From a virus: DNA of 50,301 bases. Below the pieces are notes generated by a model. That model was not told where the DNA came from, searched no databases, and was given only the letters and a program-made list of their open reading frames with translations. A program made the position numbers and the translations under genes. The DNA is taken from positions 1 through 50,301 of IMG/VR virus record IMGVR_UViG_3300032087_003955. One strand, given 5' to 3'. Positions 19,553 through 42,105 of this stretch are shown here, one piece after another (position 1 is the stretch's first letter; the number at the start of each line of letters is the position of its first letter).

Positions 19553-22500
19553 ATGGGAATTAACAAGAATTTCGTTGTTCGTAATGGTTTAGAAGTTGCA
19601 AATAACCTTCTATATGCGAGTGATGAAACTAACCGTGTTGGTATCAATACGGCAATTCCTGAATATGAATTAGAAGTAATTGGTGATACACGTTTAGATG
19701 GTGCCATTGTATCTACAGCAGATACAGCAGGTGTTTCTGGTCAATATATAAAATCAACTGGAACTGGATGGGAGTGGGACACATTTCCTAGAAATAGACA
19801 AGCTGAAAAATATACACTTGTCGCATCACAAACAAGAATTCCTGCAACTGGACAATTTCCATCATTCACACTTGTAGAATATGAGTTAACAAGTGTATAT
19901 CTTGATGGTGTAAAACTTACTAGTGGAGATTATGCAATTAATCCTGGAGGGGATTCAATCACACTGTTTGCTGCAGCATTTGGTGGAGAAGAGATTGAAA
20001 TCATTGCTCATGGAGCAACTTCTGTAGGAACAGGAAACACTGGTATTCTTGGTATTTCCGTTAGAGAATCTGGCATTTCTACTGGAGATCCTGGAAGAAT
20101 TCAAATCCTAGACTTTGTTGGTCTTGGTGTAACACTTTCTGGAAGAACAGGTCTTGTTACTGCATACATTGACTCTGGTGGTTTATCAGATGTACAAAGT
20201 GACCCATCACCACTACTTGGTGGTTACTTAGGTCTAAACAATAAAGGAATTTATGGTACAGGTATTGTAACTGCTACTGGTTTTGTTGGTGATGGTTCTG
20301 AACTTACGGGAATCACAACACTTATCAAAGCAGGAACTGGTATCTATATTGATACTTTTAGTGGTATTACTACAATTAATGCATCTGCATCTGGTGGATC
20401 TGGTACTGGTTACTTTGATAATGATCAAACTAATCCTGGTATTCATACAACATCAACTCATGTTGGTCTTGGTACAACAAATCCAAGATTCCAAACAGAA
20501 ATTGGTCCTGTAGGTGCAGCTGGAACTCAACTTTGGGTCAATGGTGATGCAAGAGTTACTGGTATTTTAACAGTAGGAACTGCAAGTATTACAATTGATG
20601 GAATTAATGATGAAATTAGAATTGGAACATCATTAACTTTAACTTCTAGTGGTTCTGCACAATATACGGGAATTGTTACTGCATCTGGATTTGATGGTGA
20701 CTTAGTTGGACAGCATAGAGTATTCACTGCAGGTGTAAGTGATAATAATGATTATGATCTCGCAGTTTTCCTCGATCCTACTCAAGGTGGACATAGTTAT
20801 AATAGGTTCGATTTAGGACATAAGTTACAATATAATCCATCTACTGGTCAACTTTCAAACTTAGGTGTTACAAGTACCCGTGGTGTATTAGTTACTGCTG
20901 CTTCAACGTTCACTAATGATGTTCAGTTCCAAGGCAACATTGAACTTGGAAATAATGACCAAGCAATCTTTGGTGCTGGAAATGATCTAAGAATTTATCA
21001 TGACGGATCAAATAGTTATATTCAAGATCAAGGTACTGGTGGTATCAACATTGATGCAAACCCATCTGTCACGATTGGTCAATATGGAACGACTGAAGAG
21101 ATGGCATCCTTTAGAGTGGGTGCTGGTGTAAGTCTCAACTACAACAACTCTAAGAAGTTTGAAACAATTAGTACTGGTGCTACCGTAACTGGAACACTAT
21201 TCGCTACAGATATCAATACTGGAATCGGAACACTTTCAGAAGTCCATACTGGATCAATTGCTGCTCAAGATCTTGATAATCTAGTTCTTTCTGCAGATAA
21301 TATTAACAGATTTGTTCAGGTTGAAGGTATTGTATTTAATAAAGCAAATCAAATTTATGGAAGTGGTGGTGACATAAGAATTCTTGGTGGTGGTGGTCAA
21401 ACATCAAGACCAAACTTATATCTTGGAAATGGTAATGGATGTATTCTTGATGCTGGATCTACTGCTTCATCTGGTCTTTCATTGAAAGGTGGTGGTTCTA
21501 ATGGTACTGTAAGAGTTGATGAAGGTGACTTCATAGTTGGTAGTAATATTACACTTGCACGTTCTACTGGTATTATTACTGCAACATCATTTGTTGGTGA
21601 TGGTTCTGGTTTAACTGGTGTAACTGGAACTGGTAGTGGTGTTGAAATTAAAGATAATGATTCTGCTGTTGGAACTGCAGCTACAATTAACTTTGGCACT
21701 GGTCTTTCTGTAAGTGCAGTATCTGCTGGTCTTGTCACAATTACCGCAAGTGGAGGTGGTGGAATCACCGAAGTTTTAAATGATACTTCACCCCAACTTG
21801 GTGGTAACTTAGATCTCAATGGTAGAACTATTACTGGTAATGGTAGTATTAATATTACTGGACATGCTCGTTTTGTTGGTGTTTCAACTTTCACAAGCAA
21901 TGTCAAACTAGAAGATGATGATAGAATTATCTTCGGTGTTGGTGAAGACTTGCAGATTCATCATAATGGAACTGATAGTTATATTGAAAACAATACTGGA
22001 AATCTGTATCTCAGAGCAAAGTCTACTGAAAATTCAATTGTAACAATTCCAGATGGTTCTGTAGAACTCTATCATGATAACTCCAAGAAGTTTGAAACTA
22101 CTGCATCTGGTATTACAGTTACTGGTGGAGTAAATGTCTCTAGTGCTTCTACATTTAGTGGAGACATAAGTTTTGATACTGCTATTGCAAATGCTGGAAT
22201 CTTCCTTGATCAAAGTGCTTCAACATTAAGATTCAAAGATAGTAATTCAATTGTATTTGGAACAACTGATACTAATTTAGCAATTTTTAGTGGTACTTTT
22301 CTGGGTGACTCAGGTGTTCATTTTAGAGGAATTAGTGGCAATAGAGATTTATATCGTCACGGTAACTTTATTATTAACTCAACCACTGTACAAAATGCCA
22401 GACTTGCAGTATTCAAACAGGAAGGGACTGATGCATTGGAGTCAAATGGTGTAGTAGAACTTTATTATCAAGATGGCATCACTGGAAATAGTGCTAAAAG

Positions 22501-22915
22501 ATTTGAAACCACAGTATCTGGTGTAACTATTACTGGTGGTGTAAATGCTTCTGGAGTTGTCACCGCAACTTCATTAAATGTTGGAACTGCCCATAGTGTT
22601 TTTTCTGATTTAGGAACTTTCACTGCTAGTGCTGGTGTTGCATATACTGCAAATACATATAATTCATCTGACTTTGTAACAGCAGAGTATACACTATTCT
22701 TCCAACATTCAAGTGGTATTCAATCACAAAAAGTTCTAGTTATGGACAATGGAACAACTGCATATGCTCAAGAATATGCAATTATGTATGATAATGACCT
22801 TTTAGTTTCTGTCGGTGCAACTGTTAGATCAGGTAATGTAGAACTTGAATGGACACCAGAAACAGGAGTAAGTGGTATTGTTACCTATAGATACACTAGG
22901 GAGACGATGATCTAA
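19553..22915 (+). CDS. Tail fibre protein, 1120 aa
   Basis: Starts MGINKNFVVRNGLEVANNLL with AGGAG nine bases upstream. It then shows fibre-shaft motifs: NRVGINTAIPEYELEVIGDT, FVGDGSELTGI and FVGDGSGLTGV. Internal repeats are visible: DLRIYHDGSNSYI against DLQIHHNGTDSYI, and three copies of N(S/A)KKFET-type units ending in VTGG/VTGT. These belong to the collagen-free fibre repeats widespread in marine myoviruses. The C-terminal 120 residues look globular and may be the tip. It overlaps the protease gene by one base (TAATG), so the two are coupled. Confidence 0.75.
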   Translation: MGINKNFVVRNGLEVANNLLYASDETNRVGINTAIPEYELEVIGDTRLDGAIVSTADTAGVSGQYIKSTGTGWEWDTFPRNRQAEKYTLVASQTRIPATGQFPSFTLVEYELTSVYLDGVKLTSGDYAINPGGDSITLFAAAFGGEEIEIIAHGATSVGTGNTGILGISVRESGISTGDPGRIQILDFVGLGVTLSGRTGLVTAYIDSGGLSDVQSDPSPLLGGYLGLNNKGIYGTGIVTATGFVGDGSELTGITTLIKAGTGIYIDTFSGITTINASASGGSGTGYFDNDQTNPGIHTTSTHVGLGTTNPRFQTEIGPVGAAGTQLWVNGDARVTGILTVGTASITIDGINDEIRIGTSLTLTSSGSAQYTGIVTASGFDGDLVGQHRVFTAGVSDNNDYDLAVFLDPTQGGHSYNRFDLGHKLQYNPSTGQLSNLGVTSTRGVLVTAASTFTNDVQFQGNIELGNNDQAIFGAGNDLRIYHDGSNSYIQDQGTGGINIDANPSVTIGQYGTTEEMASFRVGAGVSLNYNNSKKFETISTGATVTGTLFATDINTGIGTLSEVHTGSIAAQDLDNLVLSADNINRFVQVEGIVFNKANQIYGSGGDIRILGGGGQTSRPNLYLGNGNGCILDAGSTASSGLSLKGGGSNGTVRVDEGDFIVGSNITLARSTGIITATSFVGDGSGLTGVTGTGSGVEIKDNDSAVGTAATINFGTGLSVSAVSAGLVTITASGGGGITEVLNDTSPQLGGNLDLNGRTITGNGSINITGHARFVGVSTFTSNVKLEDDDRIIFGVGEDLQIHHNGTDSYIENNTGNLYLRAKSTENSIVTIPDGSVELYHDNSKKFETTASGITVTGGVNVSSASTFSGDISFDTAIANAGIFLDQSASTLRFKDSNSIVFGTTDTNLAIFSGTFLGDSGVHFRGISGNRDLYRHGNFIINSTTVQNARLAVFKQEGTDALESNGVVELYYQDGITGNSAKRFETTVSGVTITGGVNASGVVTATSLNVGTAHSVFSDLGTFTASAGVAYTANTYNSSDFVTAEYTLFFQHSSGIQSQKVLVMDNGTTAYAQEYAIMYDNDLLVSVGATVRSGNVELEWTPETGVSGIVTYRYTRETMI

Positions 22916-24738
22916 TGCATACAGAAGTACATTCCGAAACAGGTAGGGTAATCGTTATCAGTGATATTCCTGATAACGAGCCTCAAGCATTTACTGTTGC
23001 AATCAAAGATCCTGCGGATTGGCAGGAAATGCATGATTATATTATTAATGAAAATGAGATTGATGGAATACCAAATAGAAGAATAGATTGTAAGGCAGAG
23101 ATGCCTTTTTCAACAAAGAGAGCAGTGTATCAGATTTCTGCAGAAGAAGCAGAAGTTTTAAGACAGCACCCTAAAGTTGAATGGGTTGAAGAGTCTTCTA
23201 CTCATAATCCAATTTGTTTAGAACAAAGAAAATTTGATGAGGAGTTTGATCGACATATTGATACTAATAGATTTAAAGATAGTAATATTAGACATAAAAG
23301 AGCAGGTGGAGATCCAACACCAATTGATAACTCTCTTTTAGATTTTACTCAATGGGGTTTACATCGTCATGGATACAAAGATGATCCTTTTGGATCAGAA
23401 ATTGATGTGAATGCTGATATACGATATGCTTTAACTGGTAAGAATGTTGATGTTGTAATTATGGATACTGGAATTCGTTGGGATCACCCAGAATTCTTAA
23501 AACCAGGAGTTGCAACTTTTGTTGATAAGAATAGCACTAGAGTTAGAGATATTCTAATCCATGGAGCATCTGAATATGGAATTGATTGGGAAGCAGAAGG
23601 GTTGATTTCTCCAGGATCGTCTCCATATACAAATTATACTGTAGCAAATGTTTTAGAATCGAGTTCTTTTAATGGATCTTGGCACGGATCTCATGTTGGA
23701 GGAACTGCTGCTGGTAATCAATTTGGTGCAGCATTTGAAGCAAATATTTGGTCTATTGCTTGCGTAGATCGTTCTGATGTTGGTTGGGCAGAACCATCTG
23801 ATGGATTTGATTACATTAAAGTATGGCATAAAAACAAACCAATCAATCCTGAAACTGGAAGAAGAAACCCAACGATTGTAAATTGTAGTTGGGGACACAG
23901 ACAATTCGTAAGAGACGACTTATCTTCAAGTGCAACATTTAGAGGAACTACCTATACTGATGGTGGTGATGAGTATCTTGGTGAAGCATATGATTCGATT
24001 TACTTTTTAGATAGAAATTCTGTCTACTTTGAATTTACAACTAGAAGAGTAAGTGGTCAAACCACAATGGATGAACTTCTAGATGATCCAGATTGTCAAG
24101 ATATAATTTTTATATGTTCTGCTGGCAATTCAAAATCTAAGCAAGATACCATAGGTGGTATTGATTATGATAACGAGTTTATATCTGGCACATTTTATTA
24201 TTCTACATCTGAGTATGATAGTTATTGGTGTAGAGGTGGAACTCCAGCAGTTGGTCACGAAGGAAAACCAGATGCAGTAATTAGTGTTGCTTCTCTATCA
24301 GAATATTATAGTATAAGTCAAGAAACATTAGATGATTACACAAGCAGAGGACCAAGAACTGACATAATTGCTGCTGGTGGTGATATTCTTTGTCCTTGGA
24401 GTAGTGGATATACTGATCCAAGAAATTCTAGTTATTTTATTAATTACTTACAAGGAACAAGTATGGCAGCACCAAATGTAACTGGTGTTGTTGCTTTATA
24501 TTTGGAATCATATCCAGATGCAACAAGAGTTGATGCCAGAAACTGGTTATTAGAGCATGGATCAGTATTAGCACCATTGAGAGATTCTGAATCAGACTTC
24601 ACACAACGTAATTACTGGGGAAGTCCAACTGCACTGAGGGATACAATTCCAAGAGTTCTTTTCAATCCATTTGCAAACAATGAAAGAGTTTCTATTGAAG
24701 GTGTAACTCTTGAAGGAATAAACTTATCATACGAATAA
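22915..24738 (+). CDS. Subtilisin-family (S8) serine protease with propeptide
   Basis: A 607-aa protein with a complete S8 catalytic set: Asp184 in VIMDTGIRWDHPEF, His257 in WHGSHVGGTAAG, oxyanion Asn405 in CSAGNS and Ser516 in GTSMAAPNVTG. Residues about 60-95 (YQISAEEAEVLRQHPKVEWV) resemble the end of an I9-type inhibitory propeptide, so it is probably made as a zymogen. No signal peptide or membrane segment is visible. The domain spans about 145-555, and the last 30 residues (ERVSIEGVTLEG) look like a beta tail. Its start overlaps the fibre stop, implying similar amounts of both. It may mature fibre or other surface proteins, or act as a virion protease on host surface proteins. Confidence 0.85.
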   Translation: MHTEVHSETGRVIVISDIPDNEPQAFTVAIKDPADWQEMHDYIINENEIDGIPNRRIDCKAEMPFSTKRAVYQISAEEAEVLRQHPKVEWVEESSTHNPICLEQRKFDEEFDRHIDTNRFKDSNIRHKRAGGDPTPIDNSLLDFTQWGLHRHGYKDDPFGSEIDVNADIRYALTGKNVDVVIMDTGIRWDHPEFLKPGVATFVDKNSTRVRDILIHGASEYGIDWEAEGLISPGSSPYTNYTVANVLESSSFNGSWHGSHVGGTAAGNQFGAAFEANIWSIACVDRSDVGWAEPSDGFDYIKVWHKNKPINPETGRRNPTIVNCSWGHRQFVRDDLSSSATFRGTTYTDGGDEYLGEAYDSIYFLDRNSVYFEFTTRRVSGQTTMDELLDDPDCQDIIFICSAGNSKSKQDTIGGIDYDNEFISGTFYYSTSEYDSYWCRGGTPAVGHEGKPDAVISVASLSEYYSISQETLDDYTSRGPRTDIIAAGGDILCPWSSGYTDPRNSSYFINYLQGTSMAAPNVTGVVALYLESYPDATRVDARNWLLEHGSVLAPLRDSESDFTQRNYWGSPTALRDTIPRVLFNPFANNERVSIEGVTLEGINLSYE

Positions 24739-24758: not shown

Positions 24759-27626
24759 ATGGCAGATAAGAACTTTGGTGCAAAGAAGATAGAACTAATT
24801 GGTTCTTCTGGAGTACCGAATATAACTAGTCCTACTAATTTAAATCTTAATGCTAATACTGTTGCCATTAGCACGGATGTTACTATTGGTGGTAAAATTC
24901 AGTCTGATGTCATTGTAGGGACTGGTTATTCTGTAGGTATTGGTTCTACTCAACCAACAGAATCTTTAGATGTTCTAGAGAATCTTGCTGTAAAAGGTTC
25001 TGTAAGATTAGTTGGTGTTAATACTAGTCTTGCAGGAACAGCAGGAACAACTGGTGACATTAAGATGTTCCATGGTGCTCCATTTATTCATGATGGAACT
25101 GCTTGGAGAGAGTTCTATCTTAAAGAAGGTGTACCAGTAACTGAATCTGCTGATACTGAATGGGATAATGTTGTCTATAGAAACACTTTTGACGAAGGAT
25201 TTACTGATTTAAAATTTAATGCTGCAACTGATGCATCTAGTTCTGCTGATACTGTAGCAGCACCACGTAAATTTGGTGAAAAGGCATTACGATTACAAGA
25301 TGGTTATATCAGATATCCACATAGAAGTGAATATGTTTTTGAGAGTGATTGGACCATTGAAGGTTGGATGTATTTTGATACAATGCCTGTTGGTGGTGGA
25401 TCTGCAGGCTTTGGTGATGCATTAGTATCAAAATACGATTCTGCGGTTAGTAGTCGAGTTTGGGCACTTCAGGCTGATCTTCAGAATTCTGGATATACTG
25501 ATTTTAATTGGTATAACTATGATAAGCATGGCAATAGTTATGGTGGTACAGGAATTGGATCTGTTGCTAATTCAACTCTTCGTTATAATTGGAATCATTT
25601 TGCTTTAGTTAGAGAAAGTAGTAATGGTTCGATACATTTCTATTTTAATGGTGAAGAAAGTGATTTTACTAGCAGCAATCAAGTTATAGATAACAATATC
25701 AATGATTACTCTGGTGCAGAACTCTATTTTGGCAGAACTCGTTATCAGAATGACTGGGACGGACTTTTTGACGATATAAGAATTTCTACTGTTGCAAGAT
25801 ATATTAGTACTGAAGGAAGTTTTACTCCACCTACAGAACCATATCCAACCACAGGAACTTTAAGTGGTCCAGTTGATCCACCATATTTTGGTTCAGTATT
25901 GGAAGAAGTGATTGCCGACACAGAAATTTCAAGTCTTTCTAATGTCAGTAGTACTACTCCATCTTCAGGACAAGTTCTTAAGTGGAATGGAACTCAATGG
26001 GCGCCTGCAACTGATTTAGTTGGTGTTGGAACAATTGGTATTGAGCTTGCCGATCTATCCGTATCAACAAATGCAGTTGGAACAAATGCACTATCATATG
26101 ATAATACGACAGGAACCTTTACATTTACACCAACATCTTTAGTTGGATATGCTACTGAGGGATATGTTGATAATGCTGTATTGGGAATTGTAACTACTGG
26201 GCAAATTTCAGGATTTATTACTGCTGGTGCCTCAGGTGCAGGGTTCACTGCATTAACAGGTGCTGCTGCTGGTACATATGGTGATTTTGATAAATCAGCA
26301 CGAATAACAGTTGACAGTAATGGAAGAATTACTGGTATTACTGAAGTTGGAATAACAACAGATGGTGCTGGAATTGATGTCACTGGCATTTCTACATTTA
26401 ACGACAATGTTTCATTTGCTTCAACCATATTAGTTGATGGTGCTGTAAATCTTGCAGTTAATAATGCAACAATCACAGGCACTGCTGGTTCAACTGGTGA
26501 TATTAAGATGATTGGTGGTGCTCCATTCTTCTATGATGGATCTTCTTGGAGAGAGTTTGCTCTTGCAACTGGCACACCAGTTACTGTTTCTGAAGACACT
26601 GAGTGGGATAATGTTATCTTTAGAAACACTTTTGATTCATCATACACAGAAGTATCACAATATGCTAACTCTCAGGATTCCTTTGCTAATCAATCTTTAG
26701 TCACATCTCCTGTTAAGTATGGTGATAAAGCATTAAGACTTTCATCTGGGTATCTTAGATATCCTCATATTAGTGCTTATAGTTTTGAAGGAGAATGGAC
26801 TATAGAAGGTTGGGTATATATTGATTCATTGCCACCTGGTATTGGTGGAAATGCTGAGGCATTAGTATCAAAATATAATGGTTCAGTTAGTACTCAGGTT
26901 TGGGCAATCCTTGCAGAAAGAATAAATACTGGATATACTGATCTTAGATGGTATAACCATGATAAGCATAACAATTCTTATAGTGGTGTAGGTATTGCTT
27001 CTGTTAGTAATTCTGACATTTATCAAACTTGGTGTCATTTTGCTGTAGTCAGAGAACCTGATAATGGTTCAATTCATTGCTATATTAATGGTATAGAAAG
27101 TGAATTCACAACAAATGATCAAGTTATAGATAACAATATCAATGATTACTCTGGTGCAGAACTCTATTTTGGTCGTAGTTATTATCAAGGTACTGATTTT
27201 GATGGACTTTTTGATGATATAAGAATTTCCAATGTTGCAAGATATACTTCTGTTGGTATTTCTACCACAACAACATTTACTCCACCAACTCAGGCATATG
27301 CAACTTCAGGAACACTTACAGTTGCAACTGATCCACCAGGAGATAAGTATGGTGAGATTGGACTTGGAACTTCTCCAACTTGGACAGGAACATCTGGTGT
27401 TACTGTTACACAACAAGACCAAGGAGAGTATCGTCTAACATTTACATCTTCTTATACTAATGCTGATGATTATTTTGTTCTAACTCAACCAATGGATCAA
27501 GGATTTGCTGCATATGTTGGTGCTGCAAGATCTACTACACACGTAGACTTTACAATTAACAGACAAAGTAATAATGCAGGAGTAGATACTGGATCACTTG
27601 CAGTTCAAGTTACCAACCATCCATAA
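24759..27626 (+). CDS. Surface protein with two LamG/ConA-like domains
   Basis: A 955-aa protein starting MADKNFGAKKIELIGSSGVP. It contains two LamG-like jelly-roll domains, at nt about 25150-25800 and 26595-27245, each with DGYIRYPH/SGYLRYPH, WTIEGWMYFD/WTIEGWVYID and LFDDIRIS-VARY. These folds typically bind glycans. Between them lies a fibre-type segment (AGFTALTGAAAGTYGDF). Each lectin is preceded by the same module, GDIKM--GAPF--DG--WREF, so the whole unit was duplicated. Likely virion surface adhesin, expressed late. Confidence 0.75.
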   Translation: MADKNFGAKKIELIGSSGVPNITSPTNLNLNANTVAISTDVTIGGKIQSDVIVGTGYSVGIGSTQPTESLDVLENLAVKGSVRLVGVNTSLAGTAGTTGDIKMFHGAPFIHDGTAWREFYLKEGVPVTESADTEWDNVVYRNTFDEGFTDLKFNAATDASSSADTVAAPRKFGEKALRLQDGYIRYPHRSEYVFESDWTIEGWMYFDTMPVGGGSAGFGDALVSKYDSAVSSRVWALQADLQNSGYTDFNWYNYDKHGNSYGGTGIGSVANSTLRYNWNHFALVRESSNGSIHFYFNGEESDFTSSNQVIDNNINDYSGAELYFGRTRYQNDWDGLFDDIRISTVARYISTEGSFTPPTEPYPTTGTLSGPVDPPYFGSVLEEVIADTEISSLSNVSSTTPSSGQVLKWNGTQWAPATDLVGVGTIGIELADLSVSTNAVGTNALSYDNTTGTFTFTPTSLVGYATEGYVDNAVLGIVTTGQISGFITAGASGAGFTALTGAAAGTYGDFDKSARITVDSNGRITGITEVGITTDGAGIDVTGISTFNDNVSFASTILVDGAVNLAVNNATITGTAGSTGDIKMIGGAPFFYDGSSWREFALATGTPVTVSEDTEWDNVIFRNTFDSSYTEVSQYANSQDSFANQSLVTSPVKYGDKALRLSSGYLRYPHISAYSFEGEWTIEGWVYIDSLPPGIGGNAEALVSKYNGSVSTQVWAILAERINTGYTDLRWYNHDKHNNSYSGVGIASVSNSDIYQTWCHFAVVREPDNGSIHCYINGIESEFTTNDQVIDNNINDYSGAELYFGRSYYQGTDFDGLFDDIRISNVARYTSVGISTTTTFTPPTQAYATSGTLTVATDPPGDKYGEIGLGTSPTWTGTSGVTVTQQDQGEYRLTFTSSYTNADDYFVLTQPMDQGFAAYVGAARSTTHVDFTINRQSNNAGVDTGSLAVQVTNHP
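25040..27310 (+). repeat. Internal duplication of a LamG module
   Basis: Two copies of a roughly 830-base unit (about 25040-25860 and 26475-27310). The copies share 55 identical consecutive bases, 25678-25732 and 27118-27172, exactly 1440 bases apart. The rest is diverged at codon third positions and by small indels. Confidence 0.8.
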
Positions 27627-40698: not shown

Positions 40699-42105
40699 AT
40701 GAATAGTGATTTGCTCAGGAACAACTATCTGGTTGTTCCTAATTTTATTACTCCAGAACATGCCGAAAAATTAAGAACAGAGTTTCATTTAACTGACTCA
40801 AAGTTTAAGTTTAGCGGAGACCCACAAGCACCAAATTCTGCTGCTGTCTGGAATTATCTTCCTGCATTAGAATTGCTTGCCAATAAAACATCTCATGTTT
40901 CTGAGATTGTTGGTGAGACTGTTCTCCCTACTTACGTTTATTCTAGAATTTATCGTAACGGAAGTGTATTAACAAAGCACACAGATCGTCCTGCATGTGA
41001 AGTTTCTATGACTTTACATTTGGGTGGTGATAAACCTTGGGCAATCTGGATTGAAACGCCAGAAAGAGAAAAAAGATGTGTCTCTTTGAATCCTGGTGAT
41101 GCTATGCTATACTTGGGATGTATTGCTCCACATTGGAGAGATAAATTTGATGGTGAACACTATACTCAATTCTTTTTACATTATGTAAGAAGTCGTGGAT
41201 ATTGTGGTGAAGCATATTTTGATAGAGAACGTGATCTTGATGAAGATTTTGACATTTTAAGAGAGGAGTATGAAGAAATGAAAAACAGATTTACAGGTTC
41301 ATCTAATAATGTAATTCTTCCTAAAAAGTATAGAGAGGAGAAAGAAAATAGATTCAAACGTCGTGAATTAAGATCTAGAGAGAAAGAAAACCTTGAGATC
41401 GTAGAACTTCAAGATGATGATAAAGAATTCGTCGATTTTGATGAAGTTATTGTTGCCAATAAAAAGTATGAAAAGTTTCTAACAAAGAAAGATTCTCCTG
41501 AACTTATTGCAAAACCAGAAAAGAAGGGTGGTTTGTCTCAAAAGACTTTAGAAGATTTTGTTGTGCATCTTGAGGAAGCAATTGATCCTGATTTTTGCGA
41601 TCAAATTCTAGAGCAATATGTGTATACAAATTACTGGGAACCAACATTAACTGGTAATGGTCATGATCCTGGAGCAAGAAAATGTGCATTTATTCCTATT
41701 TCTGATCCAGCAGTTCTTCAAGAAGATAATCAAGAAGAACGTAAAGAAATCGACAATAAGTTATTTGAAATTGTCCAAGATTTGATTAAGCAATATCAGG
41801 ACATGCACCCCGACTTTGATTTGGAAATTCAAGAAGATTCTGGTTATGAACTTCTACGTTACGAGGAAGGTGATTTTTACGTTCAACATACAGATTCATT
41901 CAAAGAACAACCCAGAGCATTGACTATTATTATGTCAATGAATAACGGATTTGAAGGTGGTCAAGTTGCACTATTTGATAGAGAACTTATGTATAGTCTT
42001 GATTGTGGTGATGTTCTTATGTTCCCTTCAAACTTCATGTATCCTCATGAAATTCTTCCAGTTAAATCTGGAGTTAGATTTTCAATCATTACTTGGGTTG
42101 TATGA
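40699..42105 (+). CDS. Two-domain 2OG-Fe(II) oxygenase-like protein
   Basis: A 468-aa protein with two oxygenase units. The N-terminal unit has His94-x-Asp96 in LTKHTDRPACEV and a distal His145 in APHWRDKF. The C-terminal unit is a prolyl-4-hydroxylase-like core with His397-x-Asp399 in YVQHTDSF, FEGGQVALFD, distal His450 in YPHEILPV and Arg460. A charged Lys/Glu/Arg linker (about 195-270) joins them. Two fused units could act on two sites or one could be structural. Its stop overlaps the next oxygenase start (ATGA). Confidence 0.75.
   Translation: MNSDLLRNNYLVVPNFITPEHAEKLRTEFHLTDSKFKFSGDPQAPNSAAVWNYLPALELLANKTSHVSEIVGETVLPTYVYSRIYRNGSVLTKHTDRPACEVSMTLHLGGDKPWAIWIETPEREKRCVSLNPGDAMLYLGCIAPHWRDKFDGEHYTQFFLHYVRSRGYCGEAYFDRERDLDEDFDILREEYEEMKNRFTGSSNNVILPKKYREEKENRFKRRELRSREKENLEIVELQDDDKEFVDFDEVIVANKKYEKFLTKKDSPELIAKPEKKGGLSQKTLEDFVVHLEEAIDPDFCDQILEQYVYTNYWEPTLTGNGHDPGARKCAFIPISDPAVLQEDNQEERKEIDNKLFEIVQDLIKQYQDMHPDFDLEIQEDSGYELLRYEEGDFYVQHTDSFKEQPRALTIIMSMNNGFEGGQVALFDRELMYSLDCGDVLMFPSNFMYPHEILPVKSGVRFSIITWVV

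Follow-up and report, generated by a model that had tools for sequence, protein, structure and literature searches.

To our knowledge, nearly all of the enzymes known from phage fibres cut sugars, and the phage receptors of Synechococcus and Prochlorococcus, the ocean's most abundant photosynthetic cells, are poorly known. Among described systems, phage T4 attaches its long tail fibres coaxially to the C-terminal domain of gp9 (PMC3004832), and the gp37-gp38 arrangement combines a fibre with a separately encoded, exchangeable tip adhesin (PMC12892980). We analysed a 50.3-kb (50,301 nt) virus fragment from IMG/VR (record IMGVR_UViG_3300032087_003955; this whole stretch is called the window here) in which a tail fibre gene is followed by a gene for a subtilisin-like (S8) protease and then by a gene for a lectin-like fibre (Table 1). 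Fibre and protease genes form an almost obligatory two-gene unit in which the C-terminal domain of the fibre is matched in class to the protease. We infer that the S8 protein is probably an active protease displayed on the virion fibre, where it would act on the host surface.

Table 1. Features of the fibre-protease locus, with their positions in the window
Feature	Position	Strand	Evidence
Slot 1: 1120-aa tail fibre protein, relative of S-SCSM1_227	19553..22915	+	PHROG tail fiber / unknown matches, BLAST
CTD-A, C-terminal fibre domain common to S8-linked fibres	22592..22912	+	alignment, HMM, AF2, structure match
Slot 2: S8 (subtilisin-like) protease zymogen, 607 aa	22915..24738	+	PF00082, fold, phage relatives
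I9-like N-terminal prodomain, residues 24-95	22984..23199	+	conservation by eye, model topology, sub-threshold PF05922/PF16470
Catalytic Asp184	23464..23466	+	invariant in 142 non-redundant relatives
Catalytic His257	23683..23685	+	invariant in 142 non-redundant relatives
Oxyanion Asn405	24127..24129	+	invariant in 142 non-redundant relatives
Catalytic Ser516 (GTSMAAP)	24460..24462	+	invariant in 142 non-redundant relatives
S8 C-terminal tail ERVSIEGVTLEGINLSYE, residues 590-607, candidate docking tag	24682..24735	+	class A conservation
Slot 3: 955-aa lectin-like fibre	24759..27626	+	likeness to S-SCSM1_229 / S-SCSM1_230
Slot-3 conserved N-terminus MADKNFGAKKIELIGSSG... ('plug' motif)	24759..24893	+	start of the gene after S8 in class-A cassettes

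For the fibre region of the window the closest match is Synechococcus phage S-SCSM1, with 82% nucleotide identity across 68% of positions 10041-34000. By BLAST the 1120-aa fibre matches S-SCSM1_227, which bears a virion protein tag, at 56% over 871 aa and at 62% over the final 118 aa. At the fibre/S8 junction (..ATGATCTAATGCAT..) the stop codon of the fibre ORF and the ATG of the S8 gene overlap by one base, so that the protease gene starts inside the stop codon of the fibre gene, just as the original prediction had it. The slot-3 ORF is a mosaic: residues 1-83 resemble S-SCSM1_229 (75%) and the rest resembles S-SCSM1_230 (73%). Both of these relatives are tagged as virion proteins, and S-SCSM1_230 is annotated as 'concanavalin A-like lectin/glucanase', which upholds the earlier claim that a lectin-like protein follows the protease; Pfam gave no match for the slot-3 protein. 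A second copy of CTD-A, found at the end of gene 229 in S-SCSM1, is missing from the window. Elsewhere in the window, the N-terminal half of ORF 40699-42105 has a PHROG ferrochelatase-type match (8e-65) and its C-terminal half has a 2OG-Fe(II) oxygenase match.

The S8 ORF has no internal stops and matches Pfam Peptidase_S8 (PF00082) with an E-value of 7.9e-28 and 98 bits (cut-off 21.8). The catalytic triad and the oxyanion Asn (D184, H257, N405 and S516) are all there and in order. The AlphaFold2 model (pLDDT 88.5, pTM 0.79) has a subtilisin fold, with a catalytic domain equal to that of aqualysin/proteinase K; against aqualysin I (4dzt) it gives Z 33.5 and an rmsd of 2.3 over 272 aa. A complete S8 protease had been predicted at 22915-24738, and these results bear that out to the base. 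The propeptide claimed for it takes the form, in the model, of a prodomain of six elements (beta-alpha-beta-beta-alpha-beta, residues 24-93), conserved by eye in 21 of 21 phage relatives. Because the Pfam Inhibitor_I9 (PF05922) matches on this prodomain are all below the cut-off (best 13.3-17.5 bits against 21.2, always to the C-terminal part of I9), the label 'I9-like' rests on topology, motif and position. By a hydropathy proxy, used in place of a signal-peptide predictor, the window protein and 141 of its 142 relatives have no hydrophobic N-terminal stretch, in agreement with the predicted lack of a signal peptide. Nor did the S8 protein, which is a subtilase, contain a poly-Gly region or a gp38-type polyglycine adhesin fold. 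The active-site Asp, His, Asn and Ser are kept in 142/142 non-redundant relatives, the set of fibre-S8 pairs left after 90% de-replication, so S8 activity is likely, judging from the sequences, to be under selection. With its S8 fold the protein does not belong to the prohead (head maturation) protease family, and S-SCSM1 has a separate prohead protease gene (SSCSM1_40), which is consistent with the premise of the original prediction that the head is where proteases of phage maturation usually work.

A protein search recovered S8 relatives in 43 of 50,697 phage records, all of them from cyanomyoviruses or marine single-cell viruses, and a second S8 query from the other subgroup recovered essentially the same set. 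Relatives are also encoded in at least 574 IMG/VR stretches. The family is large and recurs far beyond chance, and every member seen belongs to a cyanomyovirus or a related uncultured virus. No bacterial source was found for it, one scan of genome contigs having given 6 weak or MAG-bound matches. Public genomes list its members as an unknown PHROG (phrog_9158) or under the names 'hypothetical protein' and 'baseplate wedge subunit'; the name 'baseplate wedge subunit' for the S8-LamG protein S-SCSM1_228 (L001:16001-20236) is likely to be a mislabel. Other public labels that look wrong are 'FhaB' and 'flagellar hook-length control protein' for fibre genes and 'PetE' for a slot-3 protein (loci include L006:7044-12751 and L003:6121-9993). 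Tandem S8 gene pairs occur at L119:5298-10017, where the pair sits between a CTD-A fibre and a slot-3 gene, and at L089:2963-6578. Giant S8 proteins of ~1650-1790 aa with no upstream CTD fibre are encoded at L064:4983-9920, L071:4983-9923 and L081:1742-7108, adjoining carbohydrate-modification and carbamoyltransferase-like genes. The S8 frame is broken near the catalytic Ser motif in L066/L109 (one contig) and in L063, through either assembly error or real loss.

When the genes preceding S8 were compared in 21 relatives, the encoded proteins ranged from 142 to 1290 aa and had variable bodies. Their last 100-120 residues were the sole strongly common feature in 20 of the 21 and formed two classes by sequence, CTD-A and CTD-B; for homology between these classes the hhalign probability was 0.1%, and they were treated as unrelated in sequence. 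The exception was S-TIM54, with no CTD fibre upstream of S8. The complete genome of S-SCSM1 has just two copies of CTD-A, one in gene 227 and one in gene 229, with the S8 gene 228 between them. As raw counts with near-copies included, the S8 gene was directly next in 71 of 80 IMG/VR loci fetched with CTD-A (a 72nd, L109, has the broken S8 frame) and in 78 of 85 fetched with CTD-B, while a CTD lay directly upstream in 65 of 79 loci fetched independently with S8. The junction spacing is typically -4 to +4 nt. Chance neighbourhood of the fibre and S8 genes was rejected on these IMG/VR counts. The pair does vary in position, being located beside baseplate and fibre genes in S-SCSM1 and after the talC/tRNA region in S-RSM4, and it forms a strand-inverted cassette in S-SCSM2R and Sf-FS3.

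The two CTD classes separate on the tree of S8 proteins from the 142 non-redundant pairs: 1 change is enough, compared with 42.7 on average after shuffling, and hence the classes have not been swapped. Among the fibre bodies, 36% of pairs in class A and 68% in class B have no BLAST similarity. Class-matched pairing with diverged fibre bodies is the trace expected from a physical partnership or from an enzyme-substrate pair. Distance matrices for S8 correlate with those for the CTD (r 0.25 in class A, 0.64 in class B) only modestly better than with those for the body (0.15 and 0.56), and this excess is not used as proof of co-evolution. The coupling of protease and fibre put forward in the original prediction is strongly supported by the pairing counts and the tree, and extends far beyond the window.

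For structure prediction the alignments drew on IMG/VR loci. The CTD-A of the window is predicted by AF2 to be all-beta (pLDDT about 91-97, mostly above 90). Its best match among solved structures is the C-terminal domain of T4 gp9 (1qex_A; Z 13.7, rmsd 1.8 A over 104 aa), followed by the C-terminal domains of Acinetobacter phage tailspikes. Reasoning from the fold that it has in common with gp9, CTD-A may be a socket for the next component. By the same analogy the conserved N-terminus of the slot-3 fibre could equally enter that socket.

Class-A cassettes have the order CTD-A fibre, S8, and then a fibre starting MADKxFGVKxInLIG, a start that was counted by eye on the gene after S8 in 48 of 52 cassettes. 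Occasionally the middle slot is held by something else, by LamG lectins in L130/L131 and L165 (PF13385, 2.5e-30 and 2e-17) and by an SBBP beta-propeller in L125 (3.3e-12), and it is empty in L152, L166, L179 and L186. No other S8 was found on the contigs with a LamG, propeller or empty slot, these contigs being fragments of at most 40.6 kb. Fusions of S8 also occur: S-SCSM1 and L107 join it to LamG, S-MbCM7 and L211 to cupredoxin, and S-TIM54 to an alpha/beta hydrolase plus Ig domains. The S8 protein of P-SSM2 (611 aa) is unfused. The S-TIM54 protein (L005:7995-14417) is a 2140-aa virion structural protein whose alpha/beta hydrolase lies between the prodomain and the S8 domain, with the Ig domains after it. 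Many class-B S8 proteins, such as that at L018:7995-10043, have a cupredoxin-like C-terminal domain (YYYICQFHGGM), although a virion protease that carries copper would be out of the ordinary. Class B also includes a non-S8 family that follows CTD-B fibres (C-terminus PCPYYLPDDF...ARTT; L017:3172-5502, L024:4500-6803, L026:1522-4077 and L001:27133-29103), and the member of that family in S-SCSM1 bears the virion protein tag.

At their C-terminus, class-A S8 proteins share a conserved tail (type PSISGVNISGISF). Extra domains precede this tail in L107, L118 and L124, and the LamG-only protein of L165 bears it too (17.3 bits). In the isolated model of the window protein the tail is of low confidence (pLDDT 44-55), as would be expected of a segment that becomes ordered on binding. 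An HMM of the tail scores 42 of 43 standard class-A proteins, which are the proteins that trained it; in the held-out set it scores 4 of 9 extended proteins, L165 and 0 of 90 class-B proteins. These findings are suggestive only, and make the tail a candidate docking tag. The tail also occurs on S8 proteins with no upstream CTD-A (L050, L053 and L052), so its partner may not be CTD-A.

The nearest relative of the window protease, SSCSM1_228, is 90% identical over 594 aa and is tagged in GenBank as a virion protein. Mass spectrometry of CsCl-purified S-SCSM1 virions detected 45 proteins (PMC9602691) and the tag is on 48 CDS, counted over the whole record, so it is not a perfect record of detection. 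The structural genes 17, 211, 215, 218 and 245 are untagged; thus the tag appears to track detection and not annotation, though imperfectly. S-SCSM1_228 is a LamG fusion about 800 aa longer than the S8 protein of the window, and for this reason its peptides could map to the LamG part only.

The original prediction had left a choice between maturation of fibres or adhesins and a protease carried on the virion to open the host surface. The second option is the one favoured here, because the S-SCSM1 relative with 90% identity bears the virion protein tag, because S8 occurs in fusions with LamG, an esterase, Ig domains or a cupredoxin, and because lectins or a beta-propeller without a protease can fill the slot. 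The S8 protein would be synthesised in the cytoplasm with no signal peptide, kept inactive by its I9-like prodomain, and attached to the fibre, most likely through the conserved C-terminal tail and/or the body at the gp9-like CTD-A. It would then mature by self-cleavage, perhaps aided by sea-water calcium; maturation by calcium-aided self-cleavage is known in other subtilases. At adsorption it would cut a surface protein of the cyanobacterial host, and fused LamG, esterase or Ig modules may bind or cut neighbouring glycans. Maturation is the main rival and is ranked lower. According to that explanation S8 trims the fibre during intracellular assembly (CTD-A and the slot-3 N-terminus are possible cut sites), and afterwards stays bound or does not. 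It accounts for the pairing equally well, since a dedicated enzyme-substrate pair would also give tight class-matched gene pairing, and the CTD is at the end of the fibre, where other phage fibres have removable folding domains, the S74-type chaperone domains. What makes it unlikely is that class-A slots can be empty, or filled by LamG or a beta-propeller, on contigs that have no S8 at any other place (fragments of up to 40.6 kb), that CTD-B also pairs with a non-protease family, that lectin, esterase and Ig fusions are odd for a processing enzyme, and that CTD-A, as modelled, looks like a stable gp9-type domain.

Exchange of S8 for lectins or a propeller in the same slot would also suit a protein whose fold serves mainly as a scaffold or adhesin at the fibre, with catalysis secondary. 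Scaffolds usually lose their active-site residues, however, and here all four of them and the prodomain are kept in every member, so this role is very improbable. Least probable of all is an intracellular protease for host takeover or defence that lies beside fibre genes by chance: the lack of a signal peptide, by the hydropathy proxy, would fit such an enzyme, but the fibre-S8 pair stays together across different genomic places and orientations, and the S-SCSM1 protein has its virion tag. Building on a protease displayed on the virion, we tentatively propose, at somewhat less than an even chance, a two-component fibre display in cyanophages. A gp9-like socket would pair with a plug-in protein that is encoded downstream and bears a C-terminal docking tail; the usual plug-in would be a zymogen protease, in class A exchangeable for or fused with lectins, propellers or esterases, and the phage would shave the surface proteins of its host.

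No description of a fibre-coupled phage subtilase was found in the literature searched, where most subscription journals were out of reach. The parts are known in kind (a subtilase, the gp9 fold, a fibre with a tip protein), and that literature yielded no account of them combined in a standing, class-matched module. If our reading is correct, so widespread a fibre-coupled protease would suggest that surface proteins form a barrier or serve as a receptor in Synechococcus and Prochlorococcus. Small recombinant pieces and phages that are in culture would allow a direct test of the socket-plus-tail idea.

The phage S8 proteins have the catalytic fold, triad, oxyanion Asn and N-terminal prodomain of secreted S8A subtilases such as aqualysin I, proteinase K and subtilisin, but they differ from these in having no signal peptide, in belonging to a structural cassette, and in possessing an extra C-terminal tail and large inserts between the motifs. 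CTD-A has a predicted fold like that of the C-terminal domain of T4 gp9, the socket of the long tail fibre; unlike gp9, to which it has ~10% sequence identity, it ends long variable fibres and has the S8 gene next to it. The likeness to gp37-gp38 of T2, S16 and PP01 is one of outline: in those phages the distal end of the fibre bears a separately encoded, exchangeable host-contact protein, but gp38 is a polyglycine adhesin bound by its N-terminus, whereas S8 is a protease that would dock by a candidate tail at its C-terminus. The polysaccharide depolymerases of tailspikes also place an enzyme at the point of host contact, and some tailspike C-terminal domains have the CTD-A fold. Those enzymes are glycosidases or lyases, while S8 is a protease encoded as a separate partner protein, and its display on the fibre would be the protein-cutting counterpart of the tailspike depolymerases.
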